DNA of 64,000 nt from Beroe forskalii (Eukaryota > Ctenophora > Nuda > Beroida > Beroidae): the NCBI GenBank assembly GCA_011033025.1, contig WFMF01000418.1, positions 1 to 64,000 of the forward strand. The letters are read 5' to 3'. The position numbers and the translations under genes are program-made. This document shows positions 10,290 to 46,472 of this stretch, piece by piece (position 1 is the first letter of the stretch; every line of letters begins with the position of its first letter). The notes under the pieces were generated by a model. The model worked only from the letters and a program-made list of their open reading frames with translations, did not search any database and was not told where the DNA came from.

Positions 10290-10505
10290 ATTATTTAACT
10301 CACACTCACAGCCCGTTCGCCGAGTTTGAAATCCAGTTTATGGAGCAGCCTCGTACTTTTTTCGGATCGTTAAATAATAGTGTGACTACACACGGATATC
10401 GGTGTGGATTTCCCATATTCCACTCGGCTTCTCCTCGAGGAATATGCACCAATCCACACCTCAATAGTGTGTAGTAACAACATATTATTTACCTTCTAGG
10501 CAGAT
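10290..10505 (-). repeat. Nested-hairpin module, copy 1 (left arm)
   Basis: In - orientation this copy has GTTACTACACAC, GAGGTGTGGATTGGTG, a degenerate core, then GTGTGTAGT, followed by a GGATCGTTAAATAAT-type second palindrome. It is the inverted partner of the copy at 12,590. Confidence 0.85.
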
Positions 10506-10623
10506 TTATGCAGTGTCTTCAAAATTCCTATAGATAGATAGTCATTATTATACCGTTAGATCGTCATTGTTAATATACCGTTCAAAACAATTTATTACGC
10601 ACTGTTGCCCGTGCATAGTATAG

Positions 10624-10797
10624 AGTTACTCAACGAATAAGTGTGAAGTAACATGATTTATGCCACGAGCGAAGCGAGTTGCGTAAATTGCATTATTCAC
10701 CGAAGCCGAAGGCTGAGTTGAATAATGATTTGTTTTCAACGAGGGCGTAGCCCGAGTTGAAAACAAGCTGTTACTTCATACTTATGAGTTGTGTAAC
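10624..10797. repeat. Cloverleaf-like cluster: outer stem enclosing three hairpins
   Basis: The outer stem is AGTTACTCAACGAATAAGTG and following bases against a near reverse complement at 10,768-10,797. Inside lie three hairpins: 10,656-10,688 (core GAGCGAAGCGAG), 10,691-10,727 (GAAGCCGAAGGCTGAG) and 10,730-10,766 (GAGGGCGTAGCCCGAG). The arms of each hairpin differ from those of the others. Confidence 0.88.
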
Positions 10798-11173
10798 GAT
10801 ATTATTCACCAAGTGTACAAACGTACAAAGCTTTGAGCCTTTAAAAGGCTGAGATTTTTAGCATTCTGTACAGTTCACAGCAAAAAAAGGACGTTCCGTT
10901 GTATCACTTTTTTGGTGGAGAGCAATTATCTACTGATCAGGCAAATTAGCAGTGTGCCAGCTCTCCCAGCAGAAAAGGACGTTCTGTCGTATCACTAATT
11001 TGAGAAAAGTGTTGAATAACACCATAAAAATGGCAAATAACACGGTGTAAGAGTGGAATAACATGGTAAAAGTGAGAATAATACTAAAAAAGGTGGAATA
11101 ATACGACAAAAAACTCTAAATAACACGTTTTTATTCAACCGGAATAACCCCACCACATGGTGAATAATATGAT

Positions 11174-11271
11174 GTTACTACACACTATTGAGGTGTGGAT
11201 TGGTGAATATTCCACCGAGGCGAAGCCGAGTGGAATATGGGAAATCCACACCGATATCCGTGTGTAGTAAC
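11174..11271 (+). repeat. Nested-hairpin module, copy 2 (98 nt)
   Basis: GTTACTACACAC and GTGTGTAGTAAC close the structure. GGTGTGGATT pairs with AATCCACACC and ATATTCCAC pairs with GTGGAATAT around the core CGAGGCGAAGCCGAG. A second palindrome (GTTAAATAA ends) follows directly to about 11,360. Confidence 0.88.
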
Positions 11272-11434
11272 ATTATTATTTAACGATCCGAAAAAAGTAC
11301 GAGGCCGCTCCGTAATCTGGATTTCAAACTCGGCGAACGGGCTGTGAGTTAAATAATAAATTATTATGCAACTTCTAAGGAGGTTTACGCAGTGCTCCTT
11401 TATATCCATTATGCACGCTAAAACAGTTCCACTT

Positions 11435-12470
11435 CAGGGCTGGATCCAGGGCAGAAAAAGTGGGGGGGGTTGTAAATTTCGGCGAGGGAGGTGGCGCGCA
11501 GCGCCGCCGAGGGAGCTTATGGTAGGGGTCTGGGGCGCAGCCCCCATGGGGTCCAGGGCGGAGCCCCAGGGTTAGGGGCGAAGCCCCCAGAAATTTTTTT
11601 CAGAAAATGAAGTCATTTTGCTAAAATCTCCTTCATATTTTTCCATAGAAACCTGGGAATTTAGACTTTCAGTAATAGACAATATGAGCTAAATTAGAAT
11701 TCAGGAAACACCTCACATTCAAGATTTTTCATATTTCCTCTGAGACTCATTTTTATTGTTTTTTGTGGTCCGCTCACTTCAGTCGCAAAATTGGAAAATG
11801 ACCACAAATGAATACGAATTGCAAGGTATATCAGTACTATGCGATTTATAGTCTTAGGTCCTAACTGAGTTTTCTGAGCACTGCAAGTGGAAATTTTGAA
11901 AGTTCCACATCGAACACAACTAAGGACTACTAATTTAGCCACATAGTTGATAATGAATCACAACATAACAGCCCGCTGCAGACGATAATTTTCAGTGTTT
12001 TGGATCCCTGACTGAGTGTCTGACTGTGTCTACACCAGTTGTGTAACAGCTCGCAACAGCTCACCGCAATCAAAATTTTCATGGGTTTTTCGCATTTGAA
12101 TCTACCTCCAAAGTCAATTTGGTGCCGGCTGTTTCGGACTGGCTCTGTCTTGACCAGTGCAGAAAGCAGTTGTTTAAAATAATTTGATCAAAACAGCCCA
12201 CCGCAGGTGAAAATTTTAGGGTTTTTTGCATCCAAATATTGAAAATTATGTGTTTGAAACTGAAAACTTGCTAACTGGGGTTAGAACTGGCTAAAGAATA
12301 ATCAAGTCAATGAACTCTCCGTGTACATAAAACATAACAAATATTACAACCCCAACAACCCCAACAACCCCACTCTAAAACCAACAACCCCACAACCCCA
12401 CTACAACCCCACTCGAGAAAAAGTGGGGGGGTTGCAACCCCCCCAAAACCCCATTGTAGATCCACCCCTG
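11435..12470. mobile_element. Nested TIR element, hAT-like ends
   Basis: The left end CAGGGCTGGATCCAGGG and right end TAGATCCACCCCTG are imperfect inverted repeats of the CAGGG...CCCTG type common in hAT elements. G-rich and C-rich tracts lie just inside both ends, and GC hairpins such as GGGGCGCAGCCCC and GGGGCGAAGCCCC follow on the left. Target duplication is not clean. It sits inside the foldback element and so arrived later. Confidence 0.6.
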
Positions 12471-12589
12471 TAATCCACTTTTAAAAAAGGGCAACTACAG
12501 TGCCAAAAAAGTGGAACTACAGTTGATAATAAAACCATTTTGGCATTGCTCCCCAGTGTTCTTCAAAACGTGACCTTACTATCTACCTA

Positions 12590-12800
12590 GAAGGTAAATA
12601 ATATGTTGTTACTACACACTATTGAGGTGTGGATTGGTGAATATTCCTCGAGGCGAAGCCGAGTGGAATATGGAAAATCGACACCGATATCCGTGTGTAG
12701 TAACACTATTATTTAATCTTTTAATGATCCGAAAAAAGTACGAGGCTGCTCCGAGGATTTCAAACTCGGCGAACGGGCTGTGAGTTAAATAATAAGGTAT
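12590..12800 (+). repeat. Nested-hairpin module, copy 3 (right arm)
   Basis: This is the same order of parts as the copy at 11,174: GTTACTACACAC, GAATATTCCTCGAGGCGAAG, GTGTGTAGTAAC, then the palindrome ending GAGTTAAATAATAA. It is the inverted partner of the copy at 10,290. Confidence 0.88.
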
Positions 12801-19989: not shown

Positions 19990-20995
19990 CCATCAACCCA
20001 TAACCCACCCCTTTCCCCTCATAACCCACCCCTTTCCACTCGTAACCCACCCCATTCCCTCAAAACCCACCCTTTTCCACTCAAAACCCACCCCATTCCA
20101 CTCAGAACCCACCCCTTTCCCCTCATAACCCACCCCTTTCCACTCAAAACCCACCCCTTTCCACTCAAAACCCACCCCTTTCCCCTCAAAACCCACCCCT
20201 TTCCACTCAAAACCCACCCCATTCCACTCATAACCCACCCCTTTCCACTCATAACCCACCCCTTTCCACTCAAAACCCACCCCTTTTCACTCAAAACCCA
20301 CCACATTCCACTCATAACCCACCCCTTTCCCCTCATAACCCACCCCTTTCCCCTCATAACCCACCCCTTTCCACTCAAAACCCACCCCATTCCACTCAAA
20401 ACCCACCCCTTTCCACTCAAAACCCACCCCTTTCCACTCATAACCCACCCCTTTCCACTCATAACCCACGCCTTTCTACTCATAACCCACCCCTTTCCAC
20501 CCATAACCCACCCCTTTCCCCTCAAAACCCACCCCTTTTCACTCAAAACCCACCCCATTCCACTCATAACCCACCCCTTTCCCCCTCATAACCCACCCTT
20601 TCCACTCATAACCCACCCCTTTCCTCAAAACCCACCCCTTTTCACTCAAAAACCCACCCCATTCCACTCATAACCCACCCCATTCCACTCATAACCCACC
20701 CCATCAACCCATAACCCACCCCTTTCCCCTCATAACCCACCCCTTTCCACTCAAAACTCACCCCATTCCACTCAAAACCCACCCCTTTCCACTCAAAACC
20801 CACCCCTTTCCCCTCAAAACCCACCCCTTTCCACTCAAAACCCACCCCTTTCCCCTCAAAACCCACCCAATTCCACTCATAACCCACCCCTTTCCACTCA
20901 AAACCCACCCCCTTTCCACTCATAACCCACCCCTTTCCACTCAAAACCCACCCCTTTCCACTCATAACCCACCCCTTTCCACTCATAACCGACCC
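19990..20995 (-). repeat. 21-bp minisatellite, same family inverted
   Basis: Forty-odd units of CCCACCCCTTTCCACTCATAA. As 21 is seven codons, all frames of the - strand stay open and produce artificial GKGWV repeats; these are not treated as genes. The variants CTCATAA, CTCAAAA, CATTCC and CTTTCC are shuffled along the array. Confidence 0.97.
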
Positions 20996-24100: not shown

Positions 24101-26266
24101 CCCATTTCCCAGCATGAAGAATGAACTCCTACTTTAAGCTGGTATGAAATAATTGTTCTTCGTTTCCGCGGAAACCTACGCAGTAAGGCCATCCTCAGAT
24201 AGCTCCATGAAGCTGAGTGCAGATAATTGACGATATTATGTGACGCCAGATGACGCTTAGTCGGTTGCAGATCCGGCTACGTAGGACCCACCTACTTAAC
24301 TCACGTTTTAGTGATATCCGGGCAGTGGTATCAGCACTCATGCAGATCTGTACTGCTCTGTCAAAGACACCGCCCCGCGTTATGACGATGCTTTCCTCCT
24401 TATCACTTTGTCTTTTACCTTCACACCTTACAACTTATTAATAACGATCTGTAAACACGTTGTTTTAGAGATGAAAAACCCTCTGATACTGTAACATTAT
24501 AATGTCGCCAGAAACAATTGCAATTCCAAAACTAATCCAATTCTCTTAATCAACCTTGCTGGATTTCCAAAATGATCCAAAGAAGACCGTTGAAATAATT
24601 GGAATTTCGATTCATGCCTCGGTTAAATTCAATATCAGCATCGTTTTCGTTTGAACTTTTTCACCGGAATCAGAGTGAAACGCGATGTCCTACCTTCCTA
24701 ATTCATTCCTACTCTTATTAATTCCTCTTTACCCTGACCTTCCACATTGGCCTTACAAGTTAGTTTCGTGATAAAGCTAATAACTTTATTGGGAAGGTGA
24801 TTAGAGTATGTGTCACCTGGTATTTCCGTAGCTGCAGACTGCAGGGTTCGTGAATCGTGAAGCTAATGTCGATGTTATAATGCGAACAATAATGTTATAC
24901 CTTATTTCCGGAGAATGCTCAGAAAGCTGGTTTGCCGTGCAGTGAACCTAAGACTCTAAGAAGACAATTGTCAAAATATCCAACTACTCTCTATGCTCTC
25001 TAATATCTAAATAATGTTTCAAGTGACACGGGACATGAAGTGACATCTTGATAATGTAATGAATCTATAAAAATCATGTACTATAGATTGATAGTTGTTT
25101 CGCAGTAACGATCATTCTACGGATTTTTATAAAATTCCTCAGAAAGTTATAACTTACGTTAGTAATATAATAGCATTAGCATTTACATGAGCCATTTACC
25201 TTGTCGCTATTCAGACAGCAAAACAGGGCAACTTCCTAACTATCTAGGCACAGTTCGATTTAATTTGCGATTTACTGTTTTAGCCAAATAAACTGTTGCA
25301 TAATCGGGCATATAATCGAGAAGGTTGCACGGGTTTCCGAATTACAAACATTCGAATATGCAATATACGTACAAAATGAAATAGCAATCAAATACTGTGT
25401 AGGGTGTCAAAAATCTGTCAAATTACAAGGATCATTTCCTCTACTTGGTAAAACATACGCAATGTTAAATCTAATAAAGTAATAATAATGATAGAGCTCA
25501 TGGTTATTACAAAACGATTTCCGCACAAAACTACCGAAAGAACCGTTCCAATAAATCTCCGTATCCCTATCTACCTCCCACTACTCAAATAATACCAAAC
25601 GTTAGGCAGACCTGAACAATGGATCGATTTGCTCTCCTTCTTCTGCTCTGTCTCTGGAGAGTATGTTATGTATGTGGAGCTGAATAACAAAATATAATAT
25701 ATATATATAAATAAATAATATATGTGATATAATATGTTAAATATATATATTTCGAGATTGTGCTCCCCAACAGCGGTTCCTGACAACTTCCTCCCAGCTG
25801 TAGCTGTCTTACCGAGCTAATGCACACTGTTCTAAACCTCATAATATGGCACTACCGGTTATAAGTCATTTAGTTACGGTCAATAACACTGCGTAATGAG
25901 GCACTCCGTAGCCAATGGGCGGCCCTTATTTCCCATCGATAGTTAGTGAATTCCAATCGTGGTAAGGAAGAAGACTGCGTATGTTGGTTGAGTAGCAAGG
26001 GGGGAAATACTAAACTGAGCACCTAGCATATATAACTCAATACGTAAAATCTAAATTCCGTGCTGATGAAAATATATTGATAATCAGGTTTGATGAATTG
26101 ATATTTGGGTATTAGTATACTATAGGTAGTGTCTATAGTGCTGTGTCTATGATTATATTAGCGAGTTATAGTGCTTGATTCTGTATTATAATTGTAGAAT
26201 TTAGCCACACAGAGAGGTAGCTCAATCTATGATTTGAGTTGGTTGAAGATAAGCGACACAGATAAT
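21115..26266. other. No gene recognised; minor repeats
   Basis: AT-rich DNA. It contains four units of a 16-bp repeat TGACAACAATCTACCC at 22,043-22,140 and an AT tract at 25,693-25,755. Open frames are short and not recognisable. Confidence 0.5.
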
Positions 26267-26452
26267 ATACGCTTAGAGCATGGCTGGGAATGCGCTAATA
26301 TAAATTATTGCACGAGGCGAAGCCGAGTGCAATAATTTGTATTGTCGCACGAGGAGCAGGCCGAGTGCGACAATACCAAATTATTGCACGAGGCGAAGCC
26401 GAGTGCAATAATTTTATTAGCGTCATGACCATTTGCCATGCTCTTAGTGTAT
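26267..26452. repeat. Cloverleaf-like cluster: outer stem enclosing three 12-bp hairpins
   Basis: The outer stem is ATACGCTTAGAGCATGGC against GCCATGCTCTTAGTGTAT, continued by GCGCTAAT against ATTAGCG. Inside are hairpins at 26,302-26,338, 26,339-26,376 and 26,378-26,414. Arms of hairpins 1 and 3 are AAATTATTGCAC/GTGCAATAATTT; those of hairpin 2 are GTATTGTCGCAC/GTGCGACAATAC. The cores are GAGGCGAAGCCGA (1 and 3) and GAGGAGCAGGCCGA (2). Confidence 0.93.
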
Positions 26453-27930
26453 TAGCCAATGTGAGGAGTGCAATACTACTTATTATTGCACGCCTACAAG
26501 TACCCTCAAAATTGGCTAATACCGTTACACAACCACGTGTTTTTTCCTAAATTATCAGCAAGTAGGGTTGCTACACTTTGTTTACTTTAACTCTTTACGT
26601 ACTATTATATAAAATTTAAATAGGGCAAATGAAATTTAGCCTAACTCCCTGGTGCCTAACTCCCAGTACCTAGTACTCCCTACAGTTCCCTACAGTTTAA
26701 AACAAATAAAGTGCTGCTGAACTCCTTTATCCTTATTAGTTGGGTTACGCAAGCACATAGTTCATTGATGACTCAAGTATACCCAGAGCAGACTCAAGTT
26801 AAAATCGCAGTTTAATTTTGGCGATGAAAAAGTTGCAACTATCTTACCAAAAATTATGTGTTAAAAAGGATAAACTTGAAAACAAAATAAAAGTGTTAAA
26901 AAGATTGTTTTGAATTATAATTTTAAAGTTACATTAATTCCAACATGTTCTCTGTTACAGCATCTCTAATGGTATGAATATTACTTTATTACAATTCCCA
27001 CGTAATTTTAAAAGAATACGCTGTGAACAACAGACCCTCCGTATATTAGTCCTTGCATAATACGCCACAACATATTGTTATTGTCATCTCATACGGGTTT
27101 AACCTACATATTATAACAGAATGTTTGACCACCTCACAAATATTCAAAGCATTGACATGGCGACAGCAGTCAAAATACGCAACACAGACCACATCAAAAT
27201 ATTATGTCGAACTCGCAACCGAATTGTACTATATAAAAATATAAGCAGTAGATTATGTAGGATTATAACAAATTAATATAACAATTGGTTAGTGGTGACT
27301 AGTGGTAAGCACTCTTCTGCTCATTAAATGAGGCGTCAGTCGACTCCAGATCAGTGGCACTACGCATATGAATACAATATACAAATTTTACTCACAAGGC
27401 ACCGTATAATAAAGTTATAACAAGCCGACGGCCCTTTTACTGTACCATTCACGAGCGGTCTCTACGCTAACAAACTGGCAGAGAAATCTTAAGTCTGTAA
27501 TACCGCCTCGGGGCTTGTTCCCTGACTGCATTGCCTTTCGAGTATAATGATTGTCCTTCCCATCATTTTGTGGTTGCATTGGCGAATATATCCAAAAGCG
27601 AAAGCTTTGAATTATGCTTTGAAATTGTGCAGCTAGATAGTGGAAAATATGCCTCTTTTCGAGTTAGCGCACTATTTTGCAATGCATATCAAAGTATCTT
27701 TTTCTGTGTTATTCCTTTTTAGTTGCCAACTGTGCAAGTAGCTAAGCGGCCATGTTTGAAGTTATACTTATTGTGTTGTAACCTAAATTTTACCAAGCTC
27801 ACATTAGCATTAGAAATTGGTCTTCATAAATTATTTGAGGATGCTCGTCACTAAGTTACATGAAATAAGGGCCTTTTTGAGGCTTGGCGCTTTTACTTGT
27901 GTGGGAGACTTAACATGTTTTCATTTTCCT
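26453..27930. other. No gene recognised
   Basis: AT-rich DNA upstream of a retrotransposon fragment; no strong repeats or exons recognised. Confidence 0.5.
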
Positions 27931-43800: not shown

Positions 43801-46472
43801 CTCGAATATCTGAGAGTATGGGTTCTTAATTACCTGTCATATCTAAAGCTACGAGTACGTTTCGAAAATTTGAAGTTATCAGACCCTATAACTAACCCGA
43901 ACTATCGCAGGTTCTTCCCTCACGCCGAGCTCTCAGCTCAAACCTTCTGGGAGCTCCTCTCCAGGGACCTGAAGAAAGACCTGGAAGAAGACGTACAGAC
44001 GTACCTCAACGACATTCCCACCTCGGAAATGATGAGTTTCCAGATGACCGTGAAGTACGTGTTCGACAAGTACATCGCCAACATTCCGGAGTACGTGACC
44101 TCGCAGCCCGAGTACCCCAAGTGGTTCGAGCCCTTCGTTATGAAGCACCTCCAAGAGTCGGATAACAAGATCAAGAACTCGTTCCTCATCAAGTCCCTGG
44201 AGAAGGACACCTTCACAGCACCCCTCAACTCGGGCATCAAGCACTCCTCCTCCGTTATAGACATCTTCAGCTCCCTCAGCGCCACTTACGAGTCCCTTGA
44301 CAAGATGAAATGCCCCGTGCCCGCCCTCCGAGACAAGTACCACAACCGGTTCGGGGAGACGATAGACTCGGTCCTAACAGAGTACACGAAGCGTATCATA
44401 GAGGTCTTCAAGAGGTCCATGGACAACCTGCAGACATCATGTGTCATCCTGTGTAACATTCACCAAGTCAGGGAGGAGTTGCAGGCTCTCTACAAGGCCA
44501 TGGGAGGGGATGCTCTCGACATTGCTTGCAGGAAGATCCTAGAGCGGACTCAGCGCCGGCTGAAAGACGCTCGGAACAGCGTTATCTTCGATATCGTGGA
44601 GAACATGAAGCCGGAGATCGAGAACTGCATCAAGGAAATAAAGACGGAGTTGCGGAACGTGAAGAACAAGAAGGAGGAGGACTACACAGAGATTGTAGCT
44701 CCGCTTATCATCTACTTCGACGTGGCTTTCTCCACCTTCGTCAAGAACTGCTACGAGCCGGTCCGGAAACCCCTGCTCCAGCAGACCTTCAAGAAAACCC
44801 TGAAGCTGTTCGAGGAGATTATCATCCTTCCTGACATCGACCACTTGGCGCAGGAGGACGTCCAGGAGCTGAACAGCAAGCAGAGTCAGGTCGTGGAGAG
44901 CATCCTGGACGGTCTGAAGGCGTACTTCACGGCTAACAGTGGCAAGTGCATCAAAGCCAAGACCCTGGAGAAGCTGCCCGAGATGAAGGACTTAAGACAG
45001 GTGCTCTCCCAATACCGGCTCACTACGGACACCCTCATCAAGAACTTCGTGAACACGGCAGAGAACCAGAACCGCTTCGCTGAGGAGGACAGCCAGGGGG
45101 AGATCCAGCTCCAGGTGGATCTCTTCAATCCACCCGGCCAGGAGCACTACGACTGCACTGTCAAAGGTGGGTGTTTCAATCAGTGTAGAGTAGTGCTAAT
45201 GTGTTGATGTTATCAAAAAGTTATCATGTTGATTCTATTTCAGTACCTTGAAGGCCAAGAGTTCCATACTTCCGTTTTAATCCCCACTCCCATTATATCC
45301 ACTTATCCACCACTCTTTTACGCCCGATCGCTCTTAGATTGCCTTCTCTCCAATCACTTCTATTTCAGTGGTGTCTGCGAGTAGATTGCACTGGAACAAC
45401 ACTAAGATGTTCAAGCCATTTGTGGAGGTTAACTTGATTGGGCCCGGTACGTCCGGAGTCAGGCGGAAGTTTACAACTAACTCCAAGAACAAGACATACT
45501 GTCCCCTCTTCAATGAGTCATTTCACTTGTAAGTAATATCGACGGCAAATGAAAATACATTTGACTGAAAATTTGAGTGTCTTCTATCCGCAAAATAAGA
45601 AAAATCAATCATTTGGGCCGGCTGAAAATGGCTTAACTTATCATAAAATGACATGCTGGACGACCCTCAGCCGGTTTGAATGAGCAATTCTTTTTATTTT
45701 GGCCATAGAAGATCCACATTTGTCCAGTCAAGTGTATTTTCATTTGCCGCCGACTTTAGAACATACTGCCCTCTCTTCAATGAGTCATTTCACTTGTAAG
45801 TAGAACATACTGCCCCTCTTCAATGAGTCATTTCACTTGTAAGTAGAACATACTGCCCCTTCTTCAATGAGTCATTCCACTTTTAAGTAGAACATACTGC
45901 CCCCTCTTCAATGAGTCATTTCACTTGTAAGTATAACATACTGCCTCCTCTTCAATGAATCATTCCGTCTGTAAGTAGAACATACTGTCCCCTCTTCAAC
46001 GGGTCATTCCGCTTCTGAGTAGAACATACTGCCTTCTCTTCAATGAGTCATTCCACTTGTTAGTAGGACATTTGAACGTCTATGTGTGAGAAAACCATGC
46101 CCATAATTCAACTGTTTACTGTTTGATAATTTACAGGAAGTCTAGATACGCTAATAACAGGATCTCGCCTTTAAACCTTATCCCACCCCCAGGAAGATCA
46201 TGAAGCCTAACGACCCTATAGACTACGAGCTGCAGTTCTCAGTCAAGGACTGGTGTCTGATGAAGACGGACCTGCTGGTGGGTGTGGCGGTCATGCCGCT
46301 CCGCGTGGTTGTGGAGACCGGCTCCATCCAGGACCGTTTAGATCTGAGCAGGTCGCTCTACCTCACCAAGGAGAACCACAGCATCGTCATCATCCTCTCG
46401 CAGCGCGTACATGATGAAGTGGCGCAGGAGTTCGTGAAGCTGAAGAAACTGGAACGAACTGAGATAGTGTGA
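31707..46472 (+). CDS. UNC13: UNC13/Munc13-family vesicle-priming protein, 17 exons (5' end not resolved)
   Basis: Proteins of this family prime synaptic and secretory vesicles at the plasma membrane by opening syntaxin and templating SNARE assembly. Seventeen exons with AG/GT borders join in matching phase to give 1,310 residues and a TGA stop. In order the product has a Ser/Gln-rich stretch, a basic amphipathic segment resembling the calmodulin-binding site (about 82-98), a C1 domain (about 223-272) with all Cys/His ligands, a C2B domain (about 343-480) with loop aspartates D361, D367, D413 and D415, a MUN domain (about 523-1140) and a C2C domain (about 1140-1270). The conserved family segments ([50 protein letters not shown]) are readily read. 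The first listed exon begins in mid-codon, so upstream exons are missing from this model; family members are usually about 1,700 residues or more for long N-terminal forms. Introns are rich in repeats. The family and C-terminal architecture are certain; the N-terminus is open. Confidence 0.96.
32197..32347 (+). CDS. UNC13: UNC13 exon 2: possible calmodulin-binding segment
   Basis: Acceptor TTTCAG and donor AGTAAGTG flank a 151-base exon (residues 54-104). The stretch [16 protein letters not shown] has Trp followed by spaced hydrophobic and basic residues, like the calmodulin-binding helix upstream of C1 in mammalian Munc13-1. Position in the protein agrees: a short linker, then C1. Binding itself is an inference from the pattern. 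Confidence 0.88.
32369..32452. repeat. Short inverted repeat in the UNC13 intron after exon 2
   Basis: AGACTAAGTCTGACATCAGA is followed by its near reverse complement (TCTGATGTCAAACTTAGTCT), forming a hairpin of about 80 bases. No function is apparent. Confidence 0.7.
32632..32801 (+). CDS. UNC13: UNC13 exon 3: acidic linker before C1
   Basis: The exon runs from acceptor CCCCAACAG to donor CAGCAG/GTCAGA and codes for residues 105-160. It is acidic at first ([12 protein letters not shown]), then polar, and has no domain. The last two bases (AG) join the first G of the C1 exon to form Arg, which supports the model. Confidence 0.85.
33761..34070 (+). pseudogene. Decayed, internally deleted copy of the UNC13 C1 exon and its flanking intron
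   Basis: From AACTAAAGTCTAAGCCC to the GTTAATTGTTGTTCTT region the sequence follows 36,050-36,570: the intron before exon 4, scattered parts of exon 4 (ACTCAGATCCAGCAACTGTA, GACGGAGCCCCACAAGTTCT, GCTTGTGGGGTGA, AGGAGCTGCTGAACGC) and the intron after it (CTCGTGATCTGATATAGGAC). Long pieces coding for the middle of C1 are missing and the frame is broken. Flanking intron is copied too, so this is a DNA duplication and not a retrocopy. It lies in the intron just upstream of the real exon. Confidence 0.9.
35039..35590. repeat. Tandem duplication, two copies of about 276 bp
   Basis: CCACGGGGAGAAAGAACTTC starts copy one at 35,039 and copy two at 35,315. The copies stay nearly identical to CTGTCCCCC. 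A CT-rich tract (CTCCTCCCCTCCATC type) follows to about 35,720. No gene is recognised. Confidence 0.9.
36089..36428 (+). CDS. UNC13: UNC13 exon 4: C1 (diacylglycerol/phorbol-ester binding) domain
   Basis: This 340-base exon holds the whole C1 zinc-binding domain. The ligand spacing is exactly H-x12-C-x2-C-x13-C-x2-C-x4-H-x2-C-x7-C, starting at the His of HKFY and ending at ADC. Known C1 domains of this type bind diacylglycerol and raise priming activity at the membrane. The N-terminal half carries the family signature [19 protein letters not shown] decayed partial copy of this exon and its flanking intron lies upstream at 33,761-34,070. Confidence 0.97.
36661..36728 (+). CDS. UNC13: UNC13 exon 5: linker after C1
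   Basis: A 68-base exon follows acceptor TTCCCGCAG and ends at donor ATGGA/GTGAGT. It codes for residues 275-296 ([20 protein letters not shown]), matching the Munc13 linker that follows DCLQ with RAAEKSS. The split codon GA/A is completed by the next exon. Confidence 0.9.
36776..37213. repeat. Dispersed repeat, copy 1 (UNC13 intron after exon 5)
   Basis: This stretch matches 63,583-64,000 at roughly nine bases in ten, starting at ATACTAAGCGCATGTCATAA in both. It is in the same orientation. The end is undefined because the second copy runs off the window. It is probably a transposon fragment of unknown class. Confidence 0.88.
37214..38420. other. Rest of the UNC13 intron after exon 5
   Basis: No exon or repeat recognised beyond the dispersed repeat at 36,776-37,213, though that element may continue into this stretch. 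Confidence 0.5.
38421..38620 (+). CDS. UNC13: UNC13 exon 6: linker helix and start of C2B
   Basis: The exon codes for residues 297-363. It ends with [22 protein letters not shown], the first strands and loop 1 of C2B; D361 is the first calcium-ligand aspartate. The donor is AAATCAG/GTGGGT. Immediately downstream the last 25 or so coding bases plus this donor are repeated about 17 times (38,621-39,265). The first GT is taken as the authentic donor because its exon has the family sequence and joins in phase to exon 7. Confidence 0.95.
38621..39265 (+). repeat. Minisatellite of about 36 bp made from the exon 6/intron junction
   Basis: About 17 tandem units follow exon 6. Each has the coding end of the exon (CTCACTGGCAAGGATAAATC) followed by the splice donor (AG/GTAGGT or AG/GTGGGT) and a few intron bases (ACTCAGG). 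Units are mostly 36 bases, with variants of about 32, 37, 38 and 44. Most units keep a consensus-like donor. Confidence 0.93.
39435..39568 (+). CDS. UNC13: UNC13 exon 7: central part of C2B
   Basis: Starting after CATTCCTCAG, this exon gives [16 protein letters not shown] and [20 protein letters not shown], the middle strands of C2B. D367 of SDPYV is the second loop-1 calcium ligand. It joins exon 6 in phase 1 and ends in phase 0 at AAG/GTTTGT. Confidence 0.96.
39760..39898 (+). CDS. UNC13: UNC13 exon 8: loop 3 of C2B
   Basis: The exon begins [14 protein letters not shown], with the loop-3 aspartates D413 and D415, and continues to [11 protein letters not shown], nearly identical to Munc13-1. 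With loop 1 intact, calcium and phosphoinositide binding by C2B is probably retained. The donor is CTCA/GTGAGT. Confidence 0.97.
40394..40596 (+). CDS. UNC13: UNC13 exon 9: end of C2B and entry to the MUN domain
   Basis: Residues 455-522 contain [20 protein letters not shown], which closes C2B, then [17 protein letters not shown], where the alpha-helical part begins. Borders are TTTCTCTCAG and GAT/GTGAGT. Confidence 0.96.
40751..40842 (+). CDS. UNC13: UNC13 exon 10: first helices of MUN
   Basis: This 92-base exon codes for residues 523-552. [19 protein letters not shown] aligns with the Munc13 segment IVDEFAMRYGVESIYQAMT. Borders are ATCCCTCAG and ATGAC/GTGAGT. Confidence 0.96.
41079..41214 (+). 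CDS. UNC13: UNC13 exon 11: MUN domain
   Basis: The exon codes for residues 553-598, from [14 protein letters not shown] to LNVSNFG, the family counterpart of HFACLSSKYM to AASNFG. The intron that follows has been enlarged by four copies of a satellite of about 355 bp. Confidence 0.95.
41250..42665. repeat. Four-copy tandem satellite of about 355 bp in the intron after exon 11
   Basis: The landmark CGCCCCTTATTGGGC recurs at about 41,264, 41,618, 41,972 and 42,332, giving periods of 354, 354 and 360. Copies are nearly identical (for example TGATCCATGCCGGTCTTCAT in each). The short open frames through it are by-products. It fills most of the intron. Confidence 0.95.
42869..43030 (+). CDS. UNC13: UNC13 exon 12: MUN domain
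   Basis: This exon gives [19 protein letters not shown] and [16 protein letters not shown], matching ERFVKLLDQLHNSLRIDL and TVDLLTSITFFRMK in Munc13. The open frame upstream of the acceptor is chance; the exon starts after TCATTCAG. Confidence 0.96.
43212..43313 (+). CDS. UNC13: UNC13 exon 13: Gly-rich insert in the MUN domain
   Basis: A 102-base in-frame exon codes for a Gly/Asn-rich stretch ([13 protein letters not shown]) and then [11 protein letters not shown], where Munc13-1 has a shorter linker. It is flanked by CTGGTAG and GAG/GTTCGT. As a phase 0-0 exon it could be skipped without a frameshift. Confidence 0.85.
43585..43763 (+). CDS. UNC13: UNC13 exon 14: MUN domain
   Basis: Starting after CATTTCAG, the exon reads [18 protein letters not shown] and [20 protein letters not shown], the counterparts of KACLNSTYEYIFNNCHELY and [20 protein letters not shown]. 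The donor AATAA/GTACGA is chosen because it gives the right phase for the next exon. Confidence 0.92.
43911..45166 (+). CDS. UNC13: UNC13 exon 15: main body of the MUN domain and start of C2C
   Basis: At 1,256 bases this is by far the longest exon. It codes for residues 746-1164, almost entirely helical, with family landmarks [47 protein letters not shown] and [19 protein letters not shown]. The MUN domain is the minimal priming module that acts on syntaxin and SNAREs. The end ([16 protein letters not shown]) is the first strand of C2C. Open frames on the opposite strand here are shadows of its strong codon bias. Confidence 0.97.
45369..45528 (+). CDS. UNC13: UNC13 exon 16: C2C domain
   Basis: This exon continues [20 protein letters not shown] to [12 protein letters not shown], like the Munc13 C2C segment ending YNESFQFSL. 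The donor is CACTT/GTAAGT. The last bases of the exon plus this donor have been copied seven times into the intron downstream (45,757-46,075). Confidence 0.96.
45539..45756. mobile_element. MITE-like imperfect hairpin in the UNC13 intron after exon 16
   Basis: The ends are inverted copies of CGGCAAATGAAAATACA, and homology continues inward (TCTTCTAT, CCGGCTGA) to a small centre, giving a 218-base fold-back. It is probably a non-autonomous DNA transposon. No clear target duplication is seen. Confidence 0.7.
45757..46075 (+). repeat. Minisatellite of about 44 bp made from the exon 16/intron junction
   Basis: Seven tandem units repeat the end of exon 16 (ACATACTGTCCCCTC, TTCAATGAGTCATTTCACTT) plus the donor GTAAGTA. 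Four units keep GTAAGT; the others have TTAAGT, CTGAGT and GTTAGT. A MITE-like hairpin sits between the real junction and the array. Confidence 0.92.
46193..46472 (+). CDS. UNC13: UNC13 exon 17: end of C2C and stop
   Basis: The terminal exon starts after CCCCCAG and completes a Leu codon. It reads [20 protein letters not shown] and [20 protein letters not shown] and ends EIV with TGA at 46,470-46,472. The C-terminal motif SQR..DEVA.EFVKLK is diagnostic for UNC13. Confidence 0.97.

Follow-up and report, generated by a model that had tools for sequence, protein, structure and literature searches.

Organization of the element at the locus

The window analyzed here, a stretch of 64,000 nucleotides of Beroe forskalii DNA that is part of contig C490 in an assembly of 216 Mb and 1134 contigs, contains a whole mobile element, assigned to a family termed F1, at 26267..26520 on the forward strand. 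The element is 254 bp long, begins with ATACGC and ends with GGCTAAT, with ends defined from 30 aligned copies and by element extraction. It is built from three 12-bp hairpins within an outer stem, followed by a 3' stem, and is preceded by the host target tetranucleotide TAAT (26263..26266, forward strand), for which the consensus is YAAT. The palindrome cluster reported in the initial annotation accounts for most of this repeat, but the repeat extends beyond the interval given there, to 26520, and includes the 3' stem. The cluster is the main part of one copy of a mobile DNA element, probably a non-autonomous transposon, and the families to which we compare it below share a DNA fold, not a sequence.

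All F1 features lie on the forward strand. The arms of the outer stem (26267..26284 and 26435..26452, inverted repeat I5) are 18 nt long and 89% complementary, and an upper part of this stem is formed by 26293..26303, which pairs with 26412-26422 (I13) and overlaps GCGCTAATAT (26292-26301). Inside the stem, inverted-repeat analysis and folding identified hairpin 1 (26302..26338), with 12-bp arms, a GA/GA internal loop, a GGC/GCC inner stem and a GAA loop, and hairpin 2 (26339..26376), with 12-bp arms (26339-26350 and 26365-26376), GA/GA and a degenerate tip, GG-AGCAGG-CC. Hairpin 3 (26378..26414), recovered from the inverted repeats, is identical to hairpin 1 over all 37 nucleotides. The three head-to-tail hairpins within an outer stem that had been read from the sequence are thus confirmed, as is the claim that changes in the middle hairpin are matched on both sides: its arm GTATTGTCGCAC differs from the arm AAATTATTGCAC of its neighbours at four of 12 positions, and all four changes are compensated on the opposite side. 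The fold is followed by a segment that we refer to as the pivot, ATTAGCCAAT (26451..26460), which is complementary over 10 contiguous pairs to the right end of the element, ATTGGCTAAT (26511..26520), as seen from inverted repeats and the aligned copies. This right end carries an element-borne TAAT, and a small hairpin (26464..26495, I8) is located inside the 3' terminal stem.

Folded as single-stranded DNA, positions 26263-26521 reached -80.9 kcal/mol, as compared to -30.6 +/- 3.4 in 200 shuffles (z -14.8), and single F1 hairpins (two hairpins, both strands) gave z values from -5.2 to -6.9. Folding with a DNA energy model, as the initial annotation had suggested, thus placed the element far below its shuffles, but the minimum-energy fold of this copy is not a cloverleaf, with hairpin 1 pairing with hairpin 3. 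A sister sub-family (L049) folds straight into the three-hairpin cloverleaf.

A member of another family, F6, was identified at 10620..11168 on the forward strand; it has the same design as F1, and folding gave an outer stem and three hairpins with inner stems of 2, 4 and 4 bp. Three copies of family F3 were located by family alignment and element extraction, one of which (11169..11357, forward strand) is a single long hairpin with the same tip that abuts the F6 right end. The other two follow GGTAAATAAT, at 12603..12793 on the forward strand and at 10290..10483 on the reverse strand. The window also contains a MUN domain of the Unc-13 family, in an exon or gene fragment (43870-45204), and an open frame made up of a short degenerate tandem repeat (GKGWVLSGKGWV...), which is likely a minisatellite (20019-20567). 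Elsewhere in the assembly, contig C1134 (L083), which is probably mitochondrial, carries a divergent COX1 frame that includes four TGA codons. This frame and the MUN domain mark the host as animal-like.

Copies, target and ends of F1

A genome search with positions 26200-26540 of the window as query yielded 40 copies, scored from 840 candidates, with 97-100% identity over approximately 258 nt; as members of one family, these copies are not independent. The 30 copies that were aligned have the same two end points in differing flanks, in agreement with the earlier suggestion that the arrangement is kept or generated as a unit, as mobile DNA. Among 45 left ends, the host tetranucleotide was TAAT in 24, CAAT in 9, TATT in 7, TGAT in 2, and TACT, CATT and CACT in one each. 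The right end was TAAT in 29 of the 30 aligned copies and TAAC in the remaining one (L020). Because the left tetranucleotide differed from the right-end TAAT in nine of the 30 (CAAT, TATT or TACT), there is no target duplication. The initial annotation had asked for target duplications, and none was seen in the 30 copies or in 39 flank pairs.

These flank pairs come from 35 loci, four of which yield two pairs each (two left ends and one right flank), and the copies were picked by their right end, so that the right-end TAAT is partly built in there. The sites had T (30) or C (9) at position -4, A (38) at -3, A (31) at -2, T (39) at -1, A (39) at +1, T (32) at +6, T (35) at +7 and A (26) at +8, from which the target was rebuilt as YAAT^ANNNNTTA. 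The joint was T^A in 39/39 pairs. The phase of the cut is ambiguous by one base, YAAT^A and YAA^TA being indistinguishable.

Several F1 copies are nested in the outer stem of other F1 copies, at GCGCTAATAT, with a left flank that ends in GCGCTAAT (L015, L016, L018, L030 and L035). F1 sequence flanks the nested insert on both sides in L015, L016 and L030, and on the left only in L018 and L035. For L030, the only insertion whose empty sequence is known, the absence of a duplication and a duplication of TAATAT fit equally well. Head-to-tail arrays of F1 were considered and dropped, since most adjacent matches are the split halves of a copy hit by another copy; genuine head-to-tail joints are found for FG, a further family, at C714 (5 bp shared) and for F1 in L035. 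Another F1 element (L061) and an FG element (L075) have comparable insertion points, each following GGGAGGGGTATAAT in another repeat.

Other families built on the same fold

The core of the hairpin tip, GAGGCGAAGCCGA, occurs 1193 times in the genome, as compared to 0 occurrences of a control read backwards. Across the window and the first 78 loci, 109 occurrences were found in 58 distinct flank contexts. The families F2 (179 bp), F3 (189 bp), FG (848 bp) and F1b are among these contexts, and neither their arms nor their internal sequences are related. The core noted in the initial annotation represents one instance of a more general motif, arm-C-[GA]-stem-GN(N)A-stem'-[GA]-G-arm'; it is not one fixed sequence, as both the length and the sequence of the stem vary. 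Inner stems in further families are GC, AGC, GAC, GCC, GGCC, GGGC, GCCC, GCGC, CAGC, AGCC, GACC and GGGCC.

All seven families and sub-families that were folded as DNA (F1b, FG, F6, L023, L085, L087 and L088) have a lowest-energy structure with hairpins enclosed by an outer stem, two in L085 and L087 and three in the other five. The outer stem of F6 and FG carries a GA/GA itself. F2 and F3 form one long hairpin each, in which a second GA/GA was read by eye lower down. We also observed one hairpin that bears two successive GA/GA levels (L088), G+C-rich arrays with nested GA/GA levels, e.g., CCCGAGGGCCCGAAGGGCCCGAGGG (L079:3669, L020:2450, L057:3812), and tandem CGAGGC arrays with repeated spacings near 38-40 bp (C110:794000, C111:202000, C122:279500).

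A search with the 848-bp FG element, in which 40 of 294 candidates were scored, gave 43 matches; 40 of these were full-length or nearly so, and the rest were pieces. No long, gene-bearing version of FG was present among the 43 matches listed, and one copy (C1069) is interrupted by an insert of about 630 bp. The three F3 copies in the window (10290-12793) all begin immediately past a GGTRAATAAT right end, and F2 copies are likewise located at the right ends of FG (L003, L046, L008) and GCCC (L043) elements; insertion seems to be drawn to the right ends of related elements. The 21-mer tip of F1 had no match in collections of viral contigs and genome contigs, and the matches of a shorter 17-mer to 24 viral contigs are probably due to chance.

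Complementarity between the pivot and the right end

In five families (F1, F3, F6, FG and F2), the segment immediately after the outer stem starts with ATTA and pairs with the right end of the element, and in each of them this ATTA adjoins the fold, with TAAT present at the left and right joints. The lengths of the pairings were compared to 2000 shuffles of the right end in which TAAT was kept and a match anywhere in the element was counted. The 10-nt pairing in F1 (ATTAGCCAAT/ATTGGCTAAT) was reached in 3 shuffles, that of 10 nt in F3 (ATTATTTAAC/GTTAAATAAT) in 9, and that of 11 nt in F6 (ATTATTCACCA/TGGTGAATAAT) in none, with a second match of 10 nt in a hairpin arm in the latter family. In the F6 member in the window, the pivot ATTATTCACCA is located at 10801-10811 on the forward strand and the right end is GGTGAATAAT. 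The 8-nt pairing in FG (ATTACATG/CATGTAAT) is weak, with 73 shuffles as long, and the 6-nt pairing in F2 (ATTATA/TATAAT) is not significant on its own (430/2000). In the GCCC family, a pivot pairing of 8 nt was read by eye, and a scan that left out the last 40 nt gave nothing.

The ATTA of the pivot is also complementary to the host TAAT on the left, with which it could pair. By analogy with the logic described for IS200/IS605 elements, the pivot may act as a guide, with one guide in place of two.

Conserved and covarying positions

Covariation was analyzed in 32 hairpins collected with the core pattern, in which the arms and the NN of the inner stem were left unconstrained; two of the 13 pairs are fixed by the pattern. 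All 11 varying pairs were changed on both sides in some hairpins, a number that is within the range of the shuffles (9.8 on average; 105/500), as is the number of pair types (33 vs. 28.5; 33/500). The covariation score was 0.443, as compared to 0.179 in shuffled (0/500) and at most 0.147 in slid alignments, and 78 cells were changed on both sides, as compared to 33.9 in shuffles. Standard pairs made up 78.4% of the pair cells, as compared to 62.0% after shuffling and at most 37.5% after sliding. Free divergence of the arms, which had been named as the observation that would speak against a maintained structure, is thus not what was found; about one-fifth of the pair cells are unpaired, which indicates that some decayed copies are included. 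Mismatches in the arms were G.T (23), T.T (16), C.T (13), A.C (10), A.G (7) and others (3), a spectrum compatible with the GA/GA-bearing strand folding either as DNA or as RNA.

The arms and the inner stems vary yet stay paired, and the GA/GA and GN(N)A positions are nearly fixed. With both sides of the internal loop left free, GA/GA was counted by eye in 92 of the first 100 of 1184 hits (control, 8), and with a free three-base loop, GNA was found in 88 of the first 100 of 1512 hits (control, 1). Among the first 100 of 1605 hits with a free four-base loop (control, 7), 44 represent the CGAGGC tandem repeat, and 53 of the 56 others among the matches listed are GNNA, mostly GNYA (50) and not GNRA (3), the RNA type. 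When the 4-bp inner stem was left free, 93 of the first 100 of 1736 hits (control, 176) were fully complementary, with seven different stems.

A sample of 360 kb (90 sequences) contained 71 distinct hairpins whose 2x2 internal loop was GA/GA, and the next type, in one orientation, accounted for 16. The loop was GNA in 47 of the 71, GNNA in 8 and other in 16, nine of which still show GN(N)A within a closing position that is unpaired and seven a different loop. Exclusion of the core that was used to fetch most of the loci left 56 GA/GA hairpins (32 GNA, 8 GNNA, 16 other). According to a paper on DNA mini-hairpins (PMC4686876), a GNA or GNNA loop combined with two or more G-C pairs makes these structures extraordinarily stable and nuclease-resistant, with a melting temperature of 78 C for GCGAAGC. 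Most of the hairpins studied here follow this rule, with such a loop in 55 of the 71, and they include four-base GNYA loops, which do not belong to the RNA tetraloops. The comparison to the GCGAAGC mini-hairpin drawn in the initial annotation was the right one, and the conservation of loop and internal loop agrees with what has been published on extra-stable hairpins of this kind. From the chemistry of G.A pairs, good folding is expected of the GA/GA and GN(N)A strand alone, its complement carrying TC/TC. The two strands of hairpin 1 have almost equal energies in the DNA nearest-neighbour model (-12.3 vs. -11.9).

Search for an associated transposase

The genome contained no match to the IS200 transposase model (Y1_Tnp, PF01797), which responds in six of 14 control genomes. 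The CRESS Rep model (PF02407) gave one match under the cut-off (E 0.07), and as this model responds in none of the 14 control genomes the search is without a positive control. The Helitron_like_N model of the Helitron Rep (PF14214) had 20 genome matches, and none of the three regions that were fetched is linked to an element. The tyrosine recombinase model (Phage_integrase, PF00589) had seven, none of which could be tied to an element. Overall, genome searches with PF02407, PF01797, PF14214 and PF00589 tied no transposase to any of the families. Since the enzyme was not found, we assign the elements to no named family and refer to them as functionally single-strand-transposon-like.

One Helitron region (L080/L079) contains an open frame of 2814 aa with Helitron_like_N, PIF1, DUF6570 and Ulp1-type protease domains and no endonuclease hit. 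GA/GA hairpins are present in L079/L080 on the other strand, 1.5-4.8 kb past the end of this frame, and no link between them was seen. Two related canonical Helitrons (L081 and L082) are 78% identical over 4.4 kb and have a common 3' hairpin, CTAGAAGGCCC-RAC-GGGCCTTCTAG. This hairpin differs from those of the elements described here, and no GA/GA hairpin was seen in either of the two Helitrons.

Comparison with known systems

The layout of the elements is closest to that of the HINE elements of Helentrons, although their target is YAAT^A, as compared to the TT or T-rich sites that HINEs favour. In the parts of the account drawn on here (PMC4067079), HINEs have no target duplication, an inverted repeat near the 5' end with an internal partner, and a 3' palindrome, and the non-autonomous elements of Helentrons comprise many non-coding families. 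These features of the HINE / DINE-1 elements recur in the elements described here. The 3' subterminal inverted repeat (subTIR) is located about 38-60 bp from the end in mite HINEs, as compared to 68 bp in F1 and several hundred in F6 and FG, and the same parts of the account do not mention GA/GA and GN(N)A hairpins.

As outlined in excerpts of a work on IS200/IS605 elements (PMC6006769), the tetranucleotide target on the left and the tetranucleotide at the right end are each matched by a guide at the foot of a hairpin. IS608 of this family and the REP/RAYT system resemble the present elements in their subterminal DNA hairpins, in the tetranucleotides at the left target and the right end, and in a candidate guide by the hairpin foot. 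In contrast, those systems are prokaryotic, with a guide for each end, whereas the elements here reside in an animal, have one common pivot and are accompanied by no Y1_Tnp match in the genome. Replitrons, according to the portion of the source used (PMC10741241), are eukaryotic, have an HUH enzyme and short direct terminal repeats, and create target duplications of 2-8 bp. A eukaryotic host and short direct terminal repeats are shared with the elements described here, unlike the duplications, none of which was seen.

Canonical Helitrons likewise have no target duplication; the cut in the present elements could equally be written as A^T by a slide of one base, and F1 has CTAA before its last T. 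However, the elements do not have the 5' TC and 3' CTRR of canonical Helitrons, their ends being ATAC, ATAG, ATAT or ATGA ... TAAT. CT precedes the final AA only in F1 among the five families with known ends, and the 3' hairpin of L081 and L082 is unrelated.

Discussion

We propose, with moderate confidence, that these elements are non-autonomous transposons that are moved as folded single-stranded DNA by an HUH enzyme that reads shape, functionally like IS200/IS605 or Helentron elements. The sequences themselves establish the repeat element with its ends, the set of families, the target consensus and the lack of a duplication, the covariation with near-fixed GA/GA and GN(N)A, and the complementarity of pivot and right end in five families; the single-stranded intermediate, the reading of shape, the class of enzyme and the guide role of the pivot are deduced from them. 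The strand that bears GA/GA and GN(N)A would fold as single-stranded DNA into a multi-branched structure, the shape and G.A-capped tips of which would be read by a putative enzyme, most likely a Helitron- or Replitron-type HUH endonuclease. The enzyme would cut at TAAT-type sites, the host YAAT on the left and the TAAT of the element on the right, both of which may pair with the ATTA pivot adjoining the fold, and the strand would then be pasted into a new YAAT^A site without duplication. More tentatively, the elements may represent an undescribed class of animal transposon, in which the enzyme would recognize a G.A-capped, GN(N)A-looped cloverleaf and not a sequence, many families would be built on one fold, and a single pivot would guide both ends as well as the choice of target. 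A narrow search of open-licence papers found no description of such elements, which is weak evidence of absence.

Integron attC sites are folded single strands that are recognized by structure more than by sequence, each being one imperfect hairpin that is recombined within its stem. The elements described here may share the recognition by structure, but their ends are located outside the fold. It is conceivable, if rather unlikely, that the element is excised as a circle, one folded strand of which a tyrosine recombinase recombines with a double-stranded target, in the manner of an integron integrase with attC. The F1 target forms a dyad, TAA-N6-TTA, the circle junctions predicted from the ends of F1, F3 and F6 are TAA-N7-TTA, and the genome does contain the seven Phage_integrase matches; but a TTA arm is hard to discern in the 18 flank pairs from the other families, and none of the seven matches could be tied to an element.

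Slightly less probable still is that the matched arms arose by mutation alone, through template switching or hairpin-templated repair, with no selection involved. Such copying is expected to make the arms of neighbouring hairpins within one element alike, as is observed for hairpins 1 and 3 of F1 and in L023, and one inverted adjacent pair of FG copies (C902) can be read in the same way. Repair should, by our reasoning, also convert GA/GA to paired bases, but GA/GA was kept in most of the matches listed, and families with unrelated arms have their tip, the layout of the outer stem and the target in common. Template switching, one of the origins considered in the initial annotation, thus does not on its own account for the retention of GA/GA and GN(N)A across families that are unrelated in sequence.

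Least probable among these alternatives is that the fold acts in RNA, with a transcribed element whose hairpins serve in a structured non-coding RNA or in retroposon-like copying, since, although G.T exceeds A.C among the arm mismatches (23 to 10) and tandem sheared G.A pairs are found in RNA too, the loops obey the DNA rule of GNA or GNNA, with GNYA far more common than GNRA among the four-base loops listed, the elements have two precise ends and no target duplication, and the window had no threshold match in searches with Rfam and ARAGORN for tRNAs and other RNA models, the best sub-threshold hit being to a microRNA model on the other strand (E 0.11).

Movement as folded single-stranded DNA, the reading that we prefer, bears on a question that is difficult to approach: selection on a single-stranded DNA fold in an animal genome is hard to test, as RNA is usually the simpler reading. 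Here, the rules for loops and mismatches are those of DNA, and they recur in families unrelated in sequence and at well over a thousand sites, and each family provides its own test of covariation. If the enzyme were found, these elements would constitute an animal counterpart of the structure-guided transposition of bacteria.
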